From assembly GCA_034440135.1 (NCBI GenBank), contig JAWXBP010000151.1, forward strand, positions 1-44,404: a stretch of DNA of 44,404 bases, written 5' to 3'. The notes under the pieces were generated by a model. That model ran no database searches. It saw only the letters and a list, made by a program, of their open reading frames with translations, and was not told where the DNA came from. Of the stretch, positions 5,085 to 27,778 are shown piece by piece. This DNA comes from Planctomycetia bacterium. Lineage in GTDB: Bacteria > Planctomycetota > Planctomycetia > Pirellulales > JALHLM01. A program made the translations under genes and the position numbers. The stretch's first letter is position 1. The number at the start of each line of letters is the position of its first letter.

Positions 5085-6166
5085 CGCTGGCGCACGGCCC
5101 GCCCATATTGCACCGGCAGCATCTGCCAGGCGTCCGTCACGCCGAGTTTGACCGCGGCGTGATAAGGCCAATACGGATCGCGCAGCATCTCGCGCGCCAG
5201 CAACACCATATCCGCATGCTCGTCGCGGATGGCGCCGTCGGCTTGTTGCGGATCAGTGATCATCCACCCGGCCGCCGTGGCGATGTCGGCTTCGCGGCGA
5301 ATGCGACCAGCGAGGGGAATCATGAAGCCCGGCGCCCAAGGGATGTGGGAAATGTCGGGCGCAACGAAGCCTTGACTGACATCGAGCAGATCCAATCCCG
5401 CGGCCTTAAAGCGGCGCGCGGTTTCGATCGATTCCTCGATCGTCACGCCGCCGTCGAGCCAATCGGTCACGGACAACCTTGCCGTCAACGGCAGCCGCTC
5501 CGGCCAGACTGCGCGGACGGCGTTCAAGGTTTCTAGCATGAAGCGAATGCGATTGTCAAAGCTCCCGCCGTATTGATCGGTGCGCTGATTGGCCAACGGC
5601 GAATAGAACTCGTGCGCGAGATAGCCATGCGCAAAATGGAGTTCGAGCCACTCATAGCCCGCGGCCAAGGCGCGCTTCGCGGCCGCGACGAAGTCTTGCT
5701 TCACCCGATTGATGTCCTCGAGCGACATCTCACGCGGCACCTTTGGCAAATTGCCGCCGAAGGCAATGGCGGACGGGGCAATCGTGTCCCAGCCGCCGTC
5801 GTCGTACTCGATGTGATTGTCTCCGTCCCAGGGACGCCGCGCGCTTGCTTTGCGGCCGGCATGCGCAATCTGGATCCCGGGAACAGCTCCGTGTTCTTTC
5901 AAAAAACGGCCGATCTTCGCAAACGGTTCCACGTGGGCATCCAAATAGATGCCGCTATCAGCAGGGCTGATACGCCCCTCCGGGGACACCGCCGTGGCCT
6001 CGACGATCACCAGGCCGGCGCCGCCGACGGCGCGAGAACCGAGGTGCACGAAATGCCAATCGTTCGGAAAGCCGTCCTCCGACGAGTACTGACACATCGG
6101 CGAGACCGCGATGCGGTTCCGCAACTCCACGTCCTTCACGCGAAACGGGTCGAACAATCCGCTCAT
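5081..6166 (-). CDS. namA: NADH:flavin oxidoreductase, Old Yellow Enzyme (YqjM/NamA class)
   Basis: An FMN-dependent ene-reductase that reduces activated C=C bonds with NAD(P)H. The 361-residue TIM barrel starts MSGLFDPFRVKDVELRNRI and has the class markers of YqjM-type enzymes: SPMCQYSSEDG (C25 and Y27, which contact flavin and substrate), QIAHAGRKAS (about 99-108), LHFAHGYLAHEFYSP with the substrate-binding pair H177/H180, NQRTDQYGGSFDNR, and RLSVTDWLDGG. The C-terminal VLLAREMLRDPYWPYHAA is the usual FMN phosphate end of the barrel. Soluble, with no signal peptide. It is followed by the DUF1349-like gene with a 4-bp overlap. The natural substrate cannot be predicted from sequence; these enzymes often act on enals, enones or nitro compounds in stress or detoxification. 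Confidence 0.93.
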   Translation of the reverse strand: MSGLFDPFRVKDVELRNRIAVSPMCQYSSEDGFPNDWHFVHLGSRAVGGAGLVIVEATAVSPEGRISPADSGIYLDAHVEPFAKIGRFLKEHGAVPGIQIAHAGRKASARRPWDGDNHIEYDDGGWDTIAPSAIAFGGNLPKVPREMSLEDINRVKQDFVAAAKRALAAGYEWLELHFAHGYLAHEFYSPLANQRTDQYGGSFDNRIRFMLETLNAVRAVWPERLPLTARLSVTDWLDGGVTIEESIETARRFKAAGLDLLDVSQGFVAPDISHIPWAPGFMIPLAGRIRREADIATAAGWMITDPQQADGAIRDEHADMVLLAREMLRDPYWPYHAAVKLGVTDAWQMLPVQYGRAVRQR

Positions 6167-6347
6167 TGCAATGGCTTCCTCTTATCGTGCTGTGGAATCA
6201 GCGAGCCGCCCGGCCACAAAGCCAACATCGCCAGCCAATGATAGAGGAGACACGTTTGCCGGCAAGTAGTCGCGATGATTGCGGCTCCTCGCGGGTCCGG
6301 AGTACAATGGACCACGCTTTCGCCGCCGATCCGCCGAGAATGTGAAC

Positions 6348-18307: not shown

Positions 18308-18652
18308 ATGAAACCGCGGTTCTCGATTCTTGCGTTGCTGAGTATTACGGCGTTCGTGGCACTAACCTTTGCCGCAATGTTATCGCCGCTGTGGTCGGCA
18401 GTTTGGATCGTCGCGTGGTTGGTATGTGTCGCCCACTTCGTAACACATGCGACTGACACTTCAAATCCGGTAACGGCTGCGTGCGGACGGACGGCTATCG
18501 TTTGCATCCTGCTGTATTTGGTAATTCCGGTCCTGAACAACCAATACAGCATTGAATACCTGATCGCTGCGGTCGTCTTCGGACGCAATCCCTCGTCGTA
18601 TATTCAACCGCAGTCAGTGCTTCAATATGCACTGGCTTTGGGATTCGGCTGA
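18308..18652 (+). CDS. Membrane protein with KPRFSI N-terminus, apparently truncated by an in-frame stop
   Basis: The 114-residue ORF starts MKPRFSILALLSITAFVALTF, nearly the same as the next gene (MKPRFSILTLLGITAYLALV), so the two are tandem paralogues. About three hydrophobic spans are seen (residues 6-30, 33-46, 60-75). It ends at TGA 18650-18652 in what should be the last membrane span. The same frame then stays open to 18724, adding VGYYMAIRHYRRQEKRANQEKVE, which matches the tail of the paralogue (RYRVLERRANQVKSGE), and its end overlaps the next ATG as ATGA exactly as the paralogue does with its own downstream gene. The gene was therefore very likely 138 codons long and has acquired a nonsense mutation, or the stop is a sequencing error. 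Function unknown; the N-terminal motif is common in short planctomycete membrane proteins. Confidence 0.7.
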   Translation: MKPRFSILALLSITAFVALTFAAMLSPLWSAVWIVAWLVCVAHFVTHATDTSNPVTAACGRTAIVCILLYLVIPVLNNQYSIEYLIAAVVFGRNPSSYIQPQSVLQYALALGFG

Positions 18653-18720
18653 GTGGGCTACTATATGGCAATCCGGCACTACCGCCGGCAAGAAAAGCGG
18701 GCCAACCAGGAGAAGGTGGA

Positions 18721-19149
18721 ATGAAACCCAGGTTTTCCATTCTTACATTGCTGGGCATCACGGCTTACTTGGCATTGGTGATTGCGGGCCTGCTCAGTGA
18801 AGTTTGGAACGTTGTTGCAATCGCCGTGTGGGCCATCGGAACACTCTTGTTGTTTGCAGTTGTTACCGGGCAGGCAAGCGGTCAAGTCCAATTTGCACGT
18901 GGATTTGTTGCCGGGCTAACGTGGAGTGGTATCACGTTCCTTTTCACCGTCAAGCTATGGCAGAGGTGGTTGTACGACGCTGCAAACGCATTGAGGGAGA
19001 GCTTCAACACTACTCTCAATATTTCGGAACTTGAAACCCATATCTTGCAGCTTATCGCCACCGCAATCGGCTTAGTCTTTGGCACATTGGCATGCTGGCG
19101 ATACCGCGTGCTGGAACGGCGGGCTAATCAGGTGAAGTCTGGGGAATGA
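18721..19149 (+). CDS. Membrane protein with KPRFSI N-terminus
   Basis: 142 residues starting MKPRFSILTLLGITAYLALVIAGLL, paralogous to the preceding ORF. Four hydrophobic segments are seen (about residues 7-25, 29-48, 60-80 and 108-126), followed by a basic cytoplasmic tail (CWRYRVLERRANQVKSGE). AGGAGAAGG in the tail of the previous gene provides the ribosome binding site, and the start overlaps the end of that frame (ATGA). The stop in turn overlaps the next ATG. No catalytic motif is visible. The role is unknown; the arrangement suggests a small operon of membrane proteins produced together. Confidence 0.72.
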   Translation: MKPRFSILTLLGITAYLALVIAGLLSEVWNVVAIAVWAIGTLLLFAVVTGQASGQVQFARGFVAGLTWSGITFLFTVKLWQRWLYDAANALRESFNTTLNISELETHILQLIATAIGLVFGTLACWRYRVLERRANQVKSGE

Positions 19150-19412
19150 GTGACAATCCCTACCAATCCCCGCAATCAGATTTGACCCCGCCAGATTTGC
19201 GTCATCGGCGGGAGAAGTTGGTGGCCTGGCTGAAAGACCGGGCGCTACTTTGGCTAACCGGGTTTGGCGTATTTGTATTTCTCATGGTCATTTCCTTGAC
19301 CTTGCCAAATATCAACAATTCCGTTGCCAAAGCAGTGTTGGCGGTTCTTGCCATCATCGCTTGGTGGACTCTTCAAAGCCGCGTACTTCAGAGGAAAACC
19401 CCGTCCCAGTAA
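19146..19412 (+). CDS. Small membrane protein with NPYQSP N-terminus
   Basis: 88 residues. The start MSDNPYQSPQSDL carries the short NPYxSP motif that I know from many unrelated small planctomycete membrane proteins, placed in the cytoplasmic tail just before the first span. Two hydrophobic segments follow (about 34-52 and 59-77), then a basic end (RVLQRKTPSQ). The ATG overlaps the stop of the gene before it (ATGA). No enzymatic motif can be seen and no function is assigned. Confidence 0.68.
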   Translation: MSDNPYQSPQSDLTPPDLRHRREKLVAWLKDRALLWLTGFGVFVFLMVISLTLPNINNSVAKAVLAVLAIIAWWTLQSRVLQRKTPSQ

Positions 19413-19467
19413 GTAAGTACACTGGGACAGAGCACACTTCATGGAACGCTGCGATGACAATCGCGTG

Positions 19468-19764
19468 ATGGACGAGAACCCCTACCGATCGCCGGAGACC
19501 GTTGGCGCCGGACACCCTGGTGAAATCGCACTCTGGTTCAGCCGCATCGTCTGGTTCGGCCTCGGCGGGCTGGGGGCGAGTGCCACGGCAATGGGTCTGC
19601 TGATTCTCGGCATGTCCATTCTCCAGTCCACGCGCGCCGCAGGCGTAGAAGTGCTCATTGGTTTCGGATTCGGTCTCGTCGTCGTTTGGATGGGCGGCTT
19701 CCTGGTCTGGCGTGCGACCAAGCGATTCAGGCGCCATGATCAAGCGCAGATCGCGATTCGATGA
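19468..19764 (+). CDS. Small membrane protein with NPYRSP N-terminus
   Basis: 98 residues, starting at the ATG at 19468 (MDENPYRSPETVGAGHPGE); an upstream in-frame ATG at 19441 would only add a hydrophilic stretch before the motif. Two hydrophobic spans are seen (about 28-53, Gly-rich, and 62-81), then a basic tail (RATKRFRRHDQAQIAIR). It shares the NPYxSP tag with the previous gene but no other obvious similarity, and follows it by 55 bp. Function unknown. A hairpin with a T-run at 19930 may end the transcript. Confidence 0.65.
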   Translation: MDENPYRSPETVGAGHPGEIALWFSRIVWFGLGGLGASATAMGLLILGMSILQSTRAAGVEVLIGFGFGLVVVWMGGFLVWRATKRFRRHDQAQIAIR

Positions 19765-22817: not shown

Positions 22818-22927
22818 TGCGCGCGCGTGAGCGCGTGCCGCTCGCGAAGGCGAAAATCGCGGTTCCTCCCTGCCGAGGCCCCAGACCTCGGCCGCGGAAG
22901 ACGATACATTCATGCCTGTCGCGCCGG

Positions 22928-22975
22928 GAGACCTGCGGTCGGTAGGGGTGCGGGGTCGGGAGACCCGCGCACAAC
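22928..22975. repeat. Dispersed 48-bp repeat, left copy
   Basis: GAGACCTGCGGTCGGTAGGG (22928-22947) continues into GTGCGGGGTCGGGAGACCCG and CGCACAAC (ending at 22975). The same 48 bp, with four substitutions, occur at 24838-24885. It lies between the glucosidase stop and the 5' remnant of the type ISP gene. Just before it, CCGAGGCCCCAGACCTCGG (22873-22891) is a small hairpin of its own. Confidence 0.85.
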
Positions 22976-23018: not shown

Positions 23019-23321
23019 ATGGCGAAAAAACCCCAGCCGAGTAAGCAACACAAGTCGCTGCTCAAGCTGATCGACAAGTATTACGCCGACCTCGCCGACT
23101 TCGCGCGGCAGCACGTGTTGTTCGAGATGGGCACGCGCCAGGCCTTTCACCGCCTGCTGGCCGACGCCGGCAAACCGCACGGTTGGACGCTGATCGCCGA
23201 GCAGTCCAAAAAGGTGAACGGCAAGACCATCCGCCCGGACGGCACCTTCAAGGACGAAATGAACCTGGTCCGCGGGTATTGGGAAGAGACGTACGAATTG
23301 ACTAAGTCCACTCGATTCTAA
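23019..23321 (+). pseudogene. Type ISP restriction-modification enzyme, 5' remnant
   Basis: 100 residues starting at ATG 23019 (MAKKPQPSKQHKSLLKLIDKY). Residues ~20-88 match the N-terminal nuclease domain of type ISP (LlaGI/LlaBIII-like) single-chain restriction-modification enzymes: FEMGTRQAFHRLLADAGKP, GWTLIAEQ, NGKTIRPDGTFKDEMNL and RGYWE. In intact enzymes the last motif continues as WEAKD, completing the PD-(D/E)xK active site, followed by helicase, methyltransferase and target-recognition domains (about 1500 more residues). Here the match stops after RGYWE and is replaced by unrelated residues (ETYELTKSTRF) and a stop. The nuclease is therefore dead. The matching 3' end of the gene lies 1 kb downstream. 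The fragment may still be translated. Confidence 0.85.
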
Positions 23322-23333
23322 AGGTCAATTGCA

Positions 23334-24239
23334 ATGTCGCATGGAAAAGGCAAGCGAGGTCAACGTAAGGACAAACGCCTCAAACCTAACAGTATTGGTG
23401 TCGATGGCGGCAAACTACCAGACGTACGGAATCAGCAATTCGAAAAGAAACAAGTTCGACACTTACCGGGGCAGCCCGCCAATCGCGATGCCGCGCCAAC
23501 CACGCCGAAATCCCCACATGCGACCGACTCTGGCTCAAGCGAAACGCCACCAGGGCCACTCCGCGATGCGACAACTGGCGGGCACGGTGACTTGTGTGTT
23601 TCGGACCGACCAGCGACCACCGAGCGATTCGCTGAAGCGCAAACGAGATACTCTTGGTACCTACTACTGGCAACCGTTGCCGCAGTGTTCATTGCCGGCT
23701 GCCAAGTGTACTTAATGTATGCCCAGAATTGCCTTTTCGATCGACAGAACGGCATCATGGACAAACAGAACCTGATCATGACGCTTGAAAACCGGCCTTG
23801 GGTTTTCGGAATGAAAGTTCACGTCGAGGCGTGTAATGCAACTGAATCACTTAAGTTCAAGGTCACGACGAACAATTCTGGCAAGATCCCCGGCCGAATT
23901 CGATCCACACGCTATGCGGCATCCGTGGTGAGGAACGGCGATTCTGTGGATCGAGTCGTAGATGGAGCAAAGACTGATATCACGGGACCACTAAAGAATG
24001 CCGCTCTTCCACCGAATGCACCGCTGATTCAAGACGTGGACATGGGGCACGGGCTTTCCGCAGGCGACATCAAGTCGCTGGACGACAGGACCGGAGATTT
24101 GTGGGTTGTGGGACGCATCGAGTACGAAGGTCCGACTGGCGAACCTTATTTTACCCAGTTCTGCTACAGCAGCGGCGGCAGGGGAAATCCAGTGGGTCAC
24201 GAGTTGCAATACAGTTCCCGTTACAACGATTTCAAGTAG
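23334..24239 (+). CDS. Single-span membrane protein of unknown function inserted in the type ISP locus
   Basis: 301 residues; the ATG is 12 bp after the stop of the type ISP 5' remnant. The first ~95 residues are hydrophilic and low in order (basic MSHGKGKRGQRKDKR, then Pro/Thr/Ser-rich). One membrane span follows (SWYLLLATVAAVFIAGCQVYLMY, about 107-129). After that comes a soluble domain with MTLENRPWVFGMKVHVE, SLKFKVTTNNSGKIPGRI, PLIQDVDMGHGLSAGD and DLWVVGRIEYEGPTGEPYFTQFCY, ending HELQYSSRYNDFK. The NRPWV...TNNSGKIPG...YF.QFCY pattern is typical of stand-alone membrane proteins of unknown function with an Ig/beta-sandwich-like outer domain. The DNA has visibly lower GC than its surroundings, and a terminator-like hairpin follows. 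It fills the gap between the two halves of a restriction gene, so it was probably acquired. Confidence 0.7.
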   Translation: MSHGKGKRGQRKDKRLKPNSIGVDGGKLPDVRNQQFEKKQVRHLPGQPANRDAAPTTPKSPHATDSGSSETPPGPLRDATTGGHGDLCVSDRPATTERFAEAQTRYSWYLLLATVAAVFIAGCQVYLMYAQNCLFDRQNGIMDKQNLIMTLENRPWVFGMKVHVEACNATESLKFKVTTNNSGKIPGRIRSTRYAASVVRNGDSVDRVVDGAKTDITGPLKNAALPPNAPLIQDVDMGHGLSAGDIKSLDDRTGDLWVVGRIEYEGPTGEPYFTQFCYSSGGRGNPVGHELQYSSRYNDFK

Positions 24240-24250
24240 ACGCCTACTTA

Positions 24251-24306
24251 CGGCCGCCTTGTTCCGACTCCCGGCGAACAAAAAGGCCGTGTCTGTTTCT
24301 TTTTCT
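24251..24306 (+). terminator. Terminator-like hairpin after the inserted gene
   Basis: CGGCC (24251-24255) and TTGTTC (24259-24264) pair with GAACAA (24276-24281) and GGCCG (24285-24289) around a Cys-loop-sized 11-nt loop. A T-rich tract (TGTCTGTTTCTTTTTCT) follows. It starts 11 bp after the stop of the membrane-protein gene, so that gene appears to be a self-contained unit inside the broken type ISP locus. Confidence 0.6.
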
Positions 24307-24346
24307 AGGTTTCGTTGGGCTATTTCATACGGCAGTGTCTGGCTGC

Positions 24347-24748
24347 TTCACTTTCGAGCAGCTGGCCGAGCTGCACCTCGACTACGAGCAGCTCAAGCCG
24401 TGGGACTTGGAGCTCATCGAAACGCCCGGCGTGCCGCTTTCGTACCGCGTCGAGGACAAGATGCGGCTCGCGAAGGACAAGGAGCGGCTGGCAGTCAACA
24501 AGTCGCTGACGCTGGCCGGCATTCCGCCCGAGGCGTTCAACTACCGTCTCGGCAACCGCTCGGCGTTGGATTGGGTCATCGACCAGTACCAGGTCAGCAC
24601 CGACAAACGCAGCGGCATCACCTCCGACCCGAACCGGGAAGACGACGAGCAATACATCGTCCGCCTGGTGGGCCAGGTGATCCGCGTCAGCGTGGAAACC
24701 GTGGCGATCGTGAACGCCCTGCCGGCGTATGCGGCCGAGAAATCGTAA
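24347..24748 (+). pseudogene. Type ISP restriction-modification enzyme, 3' remnant
   Basis: The frame ending at TAA 24748 encodes the C-terminal target-recognition part of a type ISP enzyme: FTFEQLAELHLDYEQLKPWDLE, then PLSYRVEDKMRLAKDKERL, LTLAGIPPEAFNYRLGNRSALDWVIDQYQV, DKRSGITSDPN, YIVRLVGQVIRVSVETVAIVNALP. In intact enzymes the same order closes the protein (LHxxYE...KMRF...IPxEAYEYxxNGxSAIEWxxxRYQVxTDKxSGIxNDPN...VSxETxxIVxALP). Upstream of 24347 the frame has no resemblance to the family, so this is a fragment without its own start; an ORF can be drawn from 24101 but that part is non-coding. Together with the 5' remnant it shows that about 4 kb of the original gene is missing. Confidence 0.85.
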
Positions 24749-24768
24749 ACCCTGTTGCGCGCGGGTCT

Positions 24769-24885
24769 GTTGTGCGCGGGTCTCCCGACCCCGCACTGGC
24801 CCCGACCGAAGGTCTCCCGGCCCGGCGTGATGCATTGGAGACCTGCGGTCGACGGGAGTGCGGGGTCGGGAGACCCGCGCACAAC
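24769..24885. repeat. Long inverted repeat; right arm is the second copy of the 48-bp repeat
   Basis: GTTGTGCGCGGGTCTCCCGA (continuing CCCCGCAC to 24796) is the exact reverse complement of 24858-24885. Pairing extends inward with gaps to GACCGAAGGTCTCC (24803-24816) against GGAGACCTGCGGTC (24837-24850). The right arm (24838-24885) repeats 22928-22975 with four substitutions. A further piece, AGCGGTCGGGAGACCGTGCC, follows at 24886-24905. The element fills most of the gap between the type ISP remnant and the response regulator. Confidence 0.85.
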
Positions 24886-25106
24886 AGCGGTCGGGAGACC
24901 GTGCCACGACAGGGACCTTGGCAAATCACATTTGGCCGACATGAGCCTCTCCGCACAGGTGGGCGCTTTCCGCACAGCGTTCCTACCTCGTCAATTCGTC
25001 ACGTCCACGCACTTGCCCGGCAAAAGCGGTACTTCGCGCCCCGGCGACTCGGCGGCACGGGCGTTGCTGTACAATCGACAGCGAGACGAGCCACCAAGGA
25101 CCACGT

Positions 25107-26501
25107 ATGCAATTCGATCCAGCCAAAATCGACCTGCTCGTCGTCGACGACGACCGGGAATTTCGTGAAACCGTCGCGCGGCGGTTCGTGCGGCGCGGGT
25201 ATCAGGTGCAAGAAGCCATTCACGGCGAGCAAGCGCTGCAGTTGGCCGAGCGACGGCAATTTGACGTCGTGATTCTCGACATGGTGATGCCGGGACTATC
25301 CGGCCTGCAGGTGCTGGAGCGATTGAAGATCTCGCATCCCGACTGCGAAGTGATTCTGCTCACCGGACAGGGGACGATCGAAACTGCGGTGGAAGCGATG
25401 AAACTCGGCGCCACAGACTTCCTGCAAAAGCCGTTTCCGCTGGCCGATCTGGAGTTGCTGATCGAAAAGGCGTACGACCGCCGCCAGCTCCGCAAGGAAA
25501 ATGCGCAACTCAAGGCGGCGCTCGGGCGCGCGCAGCATGCGCCGGAGATCATCGGCAAATCGGCCGCCATGCAGGAACTGGCGCGTCTCATTGACCGCGC
25601 CGGACCGACCGACAAATCCATTCTCATTCAAGGCGAAAGCGGCACGGGCAAGGAGTTGGTGGCCCACGCGCTGCATCGGGCCAGTCCTCGGGCCGCGAAG
25701 CCGCTGGTGGTGATCAATTGCGCGGCGCTGCCGGAGAATCTCCTGGAGAGCGAACTGTTCGGCCACGAAAAAGGATCATTCACCGGCGCGATCGCCACGA
25801 AGCAAGGGCTCTTCGAAGTTGCCGACGGCGGTACGCTGTTCATTGATGAGATCGGGGAACTCGCGCCATCATTGCAGGCGAAGTTGTTGCGCGTGCTGGA
25901 GGACGGTTCGATGCGCCGCGTCGGTTCGCTGAAAGAGCGACGTGTCGACGTGCGGCTGCTGGCGGCCACGAACCGCGACATGCAGCAGGAAGTGGCCAAG
26001 AAAAACTTCCGCGAGGATTTGTACTACCGCATCAACGTCATGTCGTTGACCCTGCCGCCTCTGCGCGAGCGGCAAGGCGACATTCCGCTCTTGGTCAAAA
26101 AGATGCTGGGCAACGCCTGGACCATCGAGCCGGACGCCATGCAGGTGATCGAGGCGTACCCTTGGCCCGGCAACGTCCGGCAGTTGTTCAACGCGCTGGA
26201 ACGCGCGCAGATCATGGCCGATGACCACTGCATCCGCTTGCGCGACTTGCCGGGCGAGATCATTCCCGCCCCCGGGCGCAACGACGATTCCTCGATACCG
26301 GCCATCAACAGCGACGCCCTCTCCGAACGCCAGCGTTTGCACATCAAGGAAGTGCTGGAACGCGAACGCGGGAACAAGTCGCGGGCCGCGCGCGTCCTCG
26401 GCGTCAGCCGCCGGAGCCTCTATCGACTGCTGGAAAAGTACGAGGGCGACCAGCCCTCGGACGGCATAACGCAGACGGCGCAAACGCCGGTGACGGACTG
26501 A
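25107..26501 (+). CDS. Sigma-54-dependent response regulator (NtrC family)
   Basis: 464 residues in three domains. Receiver (1-125): LLVVDDDRE, phospho-acceptor D58 in VVILDMVMPG, T86 in LLTGQG, K108 in LQKPF. AAA+ domain (148-375): Walker A IQGESGTGKE (about 175-184), the sigma-54 contact loop ELFGHEKGSFTGA, where the usual GAFTGA is GSFTGA (223-228), Walker B GGTLFIDEIGE, and PWPGNVRQLFNAL. C-terminal Fis-type helix-turn-helix: NKSRAARVLGVSRRSLYRLLEKY. So a phosphorylated form should activate transcription from a -24/-12 promoter. A histidine kinase with a globin sensor is encoded convergently 23 bp downstream and is the likely partner. Target genes may include the neighbouring cbb3 oxidase cluster, which has a -24/-12 match upstream. 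The Ala-to-Ser change in the loop is conservative and found in active regulators. Confidence 0.94.
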   Translation: MQFDPAKIDLLVVDDDREFRETVARRFVRRGYQVQEAIHGEQALQLAERRQFDVVILDMVMPGLSGLQVLERLKISHPDCEVILLTGQGTIETAVEAMKLGATDFLQKPFPLADLELLIEKAYDRRQLRKENAQLKAALGRAQHAPEIIGKSAAMQELARLIDRAGPTDKSILIQGESGTGKELVAHALHRASPRAAKPLVVINCAALPENLLESELFGHEKGSFTGAIATKQGLFEVADGGTLFIDEIGELAPSLQAKLLRVLEDGSMRRVGSLKERRVDVRLLAATNRDMQQEVAKKNFREDLYYRINVMSLTLPPLRERQGDIPLLVKKMLGNAWTIEPDAMQVIEAYPWPGNVRQLFNALERAQIMADDHCIRLRDLPGEIIPAPGRNDDSSIPAINSDALSERQRLHIKEVLERERGNKSRAARVLGVSRRSLYRLLEKYEGDQPSDGITQTAQTPVTD

Positions 26502-26524: not shown

Positions 26525-27778
26525 TCACTCCTCCTGCGCCGTGGCGAGCAGCAGGCGGATGTGGAACGCGCAGCCTTGCCCGGGCTGCGATTCCGCCCAG
26601 ATCGTGCCTCCTTGTTGCTCGACAAGCGTCTTGGCGAAATAGAGGCCCAGCCCGGAGCCGGGCGTATCGCGATGGACGTCAAGCCGCCGAAACGGGACGA
26701 ACACGCGCGTCAACTCGTGCGGCGGGATGCCTGGTCCGTTATCGATAATCGAGATCGTGCAATGGCGTTCGTCGACGTCCGCACGGACGGTGATTCTCCC
26801 CGCCGGTTTGTCGTTGTACTTGATGGCGTTCGATAGGAGATTGAAGAACACTTCGCGCAGACGCACGCGATCCGCGCGCACGACGGGGATGCGTTCCGGC
26901 AGCGTGATCGTGATGTGCTTCTGTTCCATCATGGGACGCAGTAGCTCCACGGTCTCCAACAACACCGGTTCCGGTGAGAGCGATTCCGGCGTTTGCTCTT
27001 CGTGCAGGGAGATCGCCGACTGCAGCAAGTCGTCGATCGTGTCGCTCATTCGCAGGGCGCGATTGCGCGCCGCTTGAATCAACTTGCCGGCTTCCCCCGG
27101 GATCTGGGGGCCGAACTCGTCCAGCGCCTCGTCGCACAAGTTGACCATGGTCGCCAGCGGCGTCTTCAAGTCGTGCGACGTTAATTGCGCGAACTGCCGG
27201 AGCTCGGCGTTCGCCTGATAGACCAAATCGAGCGCTCGACGCAGATTCGCCGTCATCCGGCTGAAGTACGCCTCGAGCGTCAATCCAATGTCGAAGAACA
27301 CCGCTTTCTGTACCGCGCGCACCAGGGAAGCGAAATGCCGTGACGGTTCGTCCAACTCTTCCGCCAGCCGCTCCACGCAAAACTGCAGATACTTGCTGTA
27401 GGCGCCGAGAAACATTTGCGGGCTGATCCCCACGCGGGCGTGTACATCGCCGACGCGAAAGCAACGGTCCATGTATTCGTCGCTCCACTCGGCGGCCAAC
27501 ATCCGCCGCAGATGCTCCATCTGCGATTCTTTCAGGCGCTCCACGAGCTCCGGGTCGCGCAGAAAGCGGGCCGTGGCCTCGAACTTGAAGAGATGCTCGT
27601 AGAACTCATCGACGAACCGGGCGCGCGACGCCAGGAGTCGCTCGTTCAGCTCCTGGAGTCGCGCACGATCTTGTTCGTCAAACTCCAGGAACTCCAGGCG
27701 TTCGCGAAGTCCCACAATCTCCTGTGGCGCTTGATGGTCATCCTCCGGCGCCGGCGCTTGGTGATTTTCAGCGTCCAT
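26525..27778 (-). CDS. Globin-coupled histidine kinase (soluble, candidate oxygen sensor)
   Basis: 417 residues with no membrane span. Residues ~25-180 are a protoglobin-type sensor: LEFDEQDRARLQELNERLL, RFVDEFYEHLFKFEATARFL, then the haem-proximal H113 in FRVGDVHARVGISPQMFLGAY, the motif spacing seen in globin-coupled chemoreceptors and cyclases. The kinase follows: phospho-acceptor H202 in FAQLTSHDLKTPLATMVNLC, N-box FFNLLSNAIKYND, G1 DNGPGIPPHEL and G2 GSGLGLYFAKTLVEQQGGTIW. The globin domain should bind O2, CO or NO, so the kinase can report oxygen or nitric oxide level in the cytoplasm. The gene converges with a sigma-54 response regulator and lies 1 kb from a cbb3-type oxidase cluster, which suggests that oxygen level is coupled to terminal oxidase expression; this link is inference. 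Confidence 0.9.
   Translation of the reverse strand: MDAENHQAPAPEDDHQAPQEIVGLRERLEFLEFDEQDRARLQELNERLLASRARFVDEFYEHLFKFEATARFLRDPELVERLKESQMEHLRRMLAAEWSDEYMDRCFRVGDVHARVGISPQMFLGAYSKYLQFCVERLAEELDEPSRHFASLVRAVQKAVFFDIGLTLEAYFSRMTANLRRALDLVYQANAELRQFAQLTSHDLKTPLATMVNLCDEALDEFGPQIPGEAGKLIQAARNRALRMSDTIDDLLQSAISLHEEQTPESLSPEPVLLETVELLRPMMEQKHITITLPERIPVVRADRVRLREVFFNLLSNAIKYNDKPAGRITVRADVDERHCTISIIDNGPGIPPHELTRVFVPFRRLDVHRDTPGSGLGLYFAKTLVEQQGGTIWAESQPGQGCAFHIRLLLATAQEE

Follow-up and report, generated by a model that had tools for sequence, protein, structure and literature searches.

Remnants of a restriction-modification gene and the segment between them

The window analysed here is the whole of a 44,404-base contig (C151) from an assembly of 7.29 Mb in 534 contigs, and in it lie the two ends of a single restriction-modification (R-M) gene, from a family that is type ISP-like but helicase-free (type IIG-like), on either side of unrelated DNA. 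The features of the locus are:

22920-22975, forward strand: REP-like repeat, ending 43 bp before the 5' remnant
23019-23288, forward strand: 5' remnant, coding for the first ~90 residues of the helicase-free type ISP-like (type IIG-like) enzyme
23289-24360, no strand assigned: foreign segment, ~1,060 bp, GC about 0.54 (0.535)
23334-24239, forward strand: cargo gene, an intact open reading frame (ORF) of 301 codons encoding a 301-aa ORFan
24347-24748, forward strand: 3' remnant, coding for the last ~130 residues (~133) of that enzyme, from the type ISP C-terminal specificity domain
24767-24887, no strand assigned: REPIN-like inverted pair of the repeat at 22920-22975, 18 bp downstream of the 3' remnant

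The translation of the 5' remnant runs from MAKKPQ to RGYWE, where it ends in a PD-(D/E)XK nuclease motif, and its frame continues into the insert until a stop at 23321. That of the 3' remnant, which includes EQLAELHLDYEQLKPW and finishes with AYAAEKS, retains its own stop codon and matches only the last third of the Pfam domain Type_ISP_C (PF18135, E 2.1e-24). Identities of the 5' remnant to related loci are 71% (L006), 68% (L007, frameshifted) and 61% (L008), and the 3' remnant is 75-80% identical to intact or related proteins. Neither remnant contains an internal stop or frameshift, each is single-copy among the contigs of the genome, and their GC3 values are 0.87 and 0.90. Both map colinearly onto the two ends of a single intact 1,055-aa protein (L066, aa 12-85 and 925-1047), which bears out the proposal of the initial annotation that two ends of one type ISP-like gene flank about 1,060 bp of unrelated DNA. 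Neither the AKD residues of the nuclease motif nor any methyltransferase residues remain in the window. The enzyme is dead, since its nuclease has no catalytic lysine, its methyltransferase is entirely absent and most of its specificity domain has been lost.

Alignment of the flanking DNA with intact and broken relatives (L006, L007, L064 and L066) places the left join at about 23289, just after TGGGAAG and thus inside the W-E-A-K-D nuclease motif, as had been proposed. The right join falls between 24347 and 24361. No R-M sequence is detectable in the foreign segment and no transposase is encoded there; the joins at 23289 and 24347 show neither inverted repeats nor a target duplication, and they have no repeat in common that could confuse an assembler. 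The lower GC content ascribed to the insert was also found, with a GC3 of 0.57 in its ORF versus 0.77-0.80 in neighbouring genes. Its supposed terminator-like hairpin does not stand out from chance, given a fold z of -0.29 and an empty terminator search of the insert.

The REP-like repeat is ~54 bp long, and the two copies of the downstream pair lie 19 bp apart. Near-exact 28-bp cores of the repeat occur about 11 times in the genome, often as inverted pairs ~110 bp apart, and the repeat is also present on other contigs of this genome, G000 (C12, C82 and C434).

The cargo ORF, the intact 301-residue single-span membrane-protein gene recognised from the outset, starts 12 nt past the stop of the 5' remnant frame with AAAGG upstream of its ATG, and an ORF of 301 codons appeared in one of 2,000 shuffles of the insert. 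The encoded protein consists of a basic N-terminal region of ~105 aa rich in Gly, Pro, Lys and Arg, one hydrophobic membrane span at about residues 107-131 and a C-terminal region in which strands are predicted with very low confidence, the two structure predictions, made without homologues, having pLDDT values of 44 and 45. No homologues were found in 58 relatives, 294 genomes of the order, viral contigs, plasmids, phages or the PDB, and searches of Pfam, PHROGs, PADLOC and the PDB gave no convincing family. Three matches in genomes of the order (E 1e-4 to 0.009) were judged to be chance, and the best PADLOC match, to PD-T4-6 (E 0.003), was likewise taken as chance since it covers only the disordered and transmembrane stretch.

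Those neighbours in the window that could be identified are housekeeping genes and form no defence island. Further along, a histidine kinase with a protoglobin domain (26525-27778) adjoins a sigma-54 response regulator gene (25107-26501), and the two are likely a gas-sensing pair. At 18500-19500 the GC content is lower (0.52), and the short ORFs there gave no Pfam or PADLOC match. A search for a related strain with the intact R-M gene at this site, as the initial annotation had proposed, found none among the relatives; in the same-genus genome G001, the upstream GH63-like gene is present at 91% and is followed by unrelated DNA that lacks an R-M gene and carries what we take to be fabZ-like and rhomboid-like genes.

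The ancestral enzyme and other broken members of its family

Intact relatives from the same order or phylum (L029-L031, L064, L066, L067 and L068) are single proteins of 1,038-1,124 residues. L066 contains the domains ISP_coupler, N6_Mtase and Type_ISP_C (E 4.8e-91), and no helicase match was obtained in the closest intact relatives, which have about 1,040-1,100 residues, or in the window. The PADLOC model PDLC03621 (REase_MTase_IIG, 1,024 aa) matches L066 over most of its length (E 8e-189), and the intact relatives are homologous to it over the nuclease, methyltransferase and specificity regions, whereas the remnants in the window match it at the two ends only, weakly at the N-terminus (E 0.026) and with E 9e-16 at the C-terminus. 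Since the remnants correspond to aa 12-85 and 925-1047 of L066, about 830 residues, or ~2.5 kb, are missing from the window gene, namely the rest of the nuclease, the coupler, the methyltransferase and most of the recognition domain. The original estimate that roughly 4 kb of helicase and methyltransferase had gone must therefore be revised, because the ancestor belonged to a helicase-free (type IIG-like) branch; a loss of 4 kb including a helicase fits the classical type ISP enzymes (PMC4666363) and not the branch of the window gene.

Among 397 genomes of the order that were searched for the family, 30 gave a C-terminal and 13 an N-terminal match. All loci compared here come from unfinished and mostly metagenome-assembled genomes. 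At least five related broken genes elsewhere adjoin foreign genes, which in three cases are other R-M systems, and the arrangement of two halves of one R-M gene around one or more unrelated intact genes occurs in the window and at L006, L008 and L100. The genome G491 encodes both an intact copy (L064) and a second, gutted copy (L100), so that an uninterrupted paralogue from the same genome is available for comparison: 415 bp at the 5' end of L100 are 92.8% identical to L064 at the DNA level and 65 bp further on are 93.8% identical. Between them lie a C5 methyltransferase (Pfam E 3e-50), a restriction enzyme (PADLOC E 2e-28) and Vsr (Pfam E 2e-25), whose stop codon is immediately followed by the right join.

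At two other loci with R-M neighbours, a single flank is seen. At L104, residues 1-44 are followed by an R-M controller protein (PADLOC E 2e-19) and a DraIII-like restriction endonuclease (Pfam E 1e-41), the foreign genes running to the end of the contig. At L070, the last ~69 residues (984-1052; 92% identical to L064 over 63 residues) are preceded by a methyltransferase-like ORF (PADLOC E 5e-21) and a 363-aa ORF that gave no family match and looks like a putative nuclease. Cargo of other kinds is found at L006, where an N-terminal part with an internal deletion is followed by an SDH/phage-type protease and then the C-terminal part, and at L008, where residues 1-115 are separated from residues 980-1051 by a small protein that matches HEPN weakly and by an ORC-CDC6-like ATPase. 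Because the breakpoints are different in every case, repeated substitution by non-homologous events fits better than the action of a site-specific element.

Decay has also occurred in the family without refilling, as internal deletions in L069 and L072 and as a frameshift in L007. In L072 (5013-6366), an Mrr nuclease is almost directly followed by part of the specificity domain, the methyltransferase having been lost and its place left unfilled. Other candidates were kept out of the comparison: G506, in which a repetitive linker marks a break between contigs, was not classed as gutted, and L076, with a PIN toxin between aa 592 and 598, was set apart because the protein may be naturally split there. 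In this type ISP-like locus, the PIN-domain toxin gene and a likely antitoxin ORF (5542-6294) lie exactly between the methyltransferase and specificity parts. The otherwise intact relative at L101 has tandem GLNAAR repeats at about 480-900 in the linker before its C-terminal part, and the gene is split between contigs at this linker.

Origin of the locus

We consider it probable that the interior of the R-M gene was replaced by foreign DNA and that the gene family is a recurrent exchange point. A single-gene, helicase-free type ISP-like enzyme of ~1,050 aa, with nuclease, coupler, N6 methyltransferase and specificity domain, would have been the starting point, and non-homologous recombination would have substituted about 1.06 kb of foreign DNA with the membrane-protein gene for ~2.5 kb of its interior. 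Given the 12-nt spacing behind the truncated first frame and the AAAGG upstream of its start, the cargo gene could plausibly be transcribed from the old R-M promoter. The swap put forward in the initial annotation is well supported as far as the loss of the interior and the gain of an unrelated gene are concerned, and relatives repeat it with R-M, protease and ATPase cargo; the suggestion that the cargo could be a defence or anti-defence factor found no backing in a family match, neighbouring genes, a plasmid or phage relative or a reliable model. The helicase-free type ISP-like family as a whole appears to behave as a recurrent exchange point, the individual cases being seen directly and their rate extrapolated from a small sample.

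Against this reading, no strain was found with the intact gene at this very site, the window cargo is without relatives and without R-M character, the deletions in L069 and L072 show gene death without refilling to be common, and the loci all come from unfinished assemblies. Ordinary decay would mean that an internal deletion was followed by the chance insertion of an unrelated gene, with no hotspot and with cargo unrelated to defence. The deletions in L069 and L072, the frameshift in L007 and the housekeeping nature of the identified neighbours in the window favour such a history, which we nevertheless regard as unlikely: R-M genes lie beside three other remnants of the family and foreign genes of other kinds beside two more, a pattern unexpected from random insertion. 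In an assembly chimera, the 1.06-kb segment would belong elsewhere and have been wrongly joined: the assembly is fragmented, its contamination estimate is 4.86% and the composition of the insert differs from its surroundings, yet two false joins would have had to keep the gene ends in the correct order and orientation, no repeat is common to both joins, and equivalent structures occur in independent assemblies, so that an artefact is highly improbable. Scarcely more probable is a mobile element with its own ends, either a transposon or a REPIN-mobilised unit, that targets the R-M gene. Inverted REP-like copies do flank the locus (22920-22975 and 24769-24824) and the repeat core is present about 11 times in the genome, yet these repeats lie outside the R-M remnants and not at the edges of the cargo, the joins and the insert lack the hallmarks of transposition described above, and the breakpoints differ between loci.

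With replacement at a recurrent exchange point as the preferred reading, the role of the cargo can be addressed separately. The protein is a defence candidate from its location alone. Our leading, if tentative, suggestion is that the cargo belongs to the same mobile pool as an accessory gene and may encode a membrane-anchored component of a defence system. The more ambitious combination, that the interior of the gene is a recurrent planctomycete exchange niche and that the ORFan arrived through it as a novel defence or anti-defence factor, membrane-anchored and encoded by one gene, seems doubtful to us.

Relation to known systems and implications

R-M genes are known to replace one another, chiefly in Helicobacter and its relatives. 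In Campylobacter upsaliensis, one R-M system inside another has been reported, and a similar insertion has been suggested for Helicobacter pylori (PMC2630997); among PabI homologues the restriction gene has been replaced by another R-M pair (PMC10273834). Decay of restriction genes in R-M loci that were broken and occupied by others has likewise been described (PMC2630997, PMC10273834; reviewed in PMC3874152), and the mobility of R-M systems with target duplications or rearrangements has been reviewed (PMC3874152, PMC3031569). The locus in the window adds a further example of this known type of replacement. As in Helicobacter, C. upsaliensis (CupORF237P) and the PabI homologues, a broken R-M locus is occupied by other mobile genes, whereas less usually the target here is one gene whose interior was lost and the cargo is an ORFan membrane protein rather than an R-M gene.

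The family resembles the type ISP enzymes LlaGI and LlaBIII in uniting an N-terminal nuclease of the Mrr/PD-(D/E)XK type, a coupler, an N6 methyltransferase and a C-terminal specificity domain in one chain, and it differs from them in having no SF2 helicase-like ATPase, the feature by which type ISP is defined (PMC4666363), and in its length of ~1,050 aa, the window copy being a dead remnant. It also resembles the type IIG model PDLC03621, as judged from the intact L066, whereas the window gene keeps only ~90 and ~133 residues.

That a single-gene R-M family has left several remnants next to different foreign genes, three of these being R-M systems, suggests that a broken R-M gene can offer competitors a dispensable site to refill. 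If a survey confirms this, remnants of the helicase-free type ISP-like family would be markers for uncharacterised defence genes, as other defence hotspots are, and if the niche reading is true, location in the niche could reveal defence genes that are as yet unknown.
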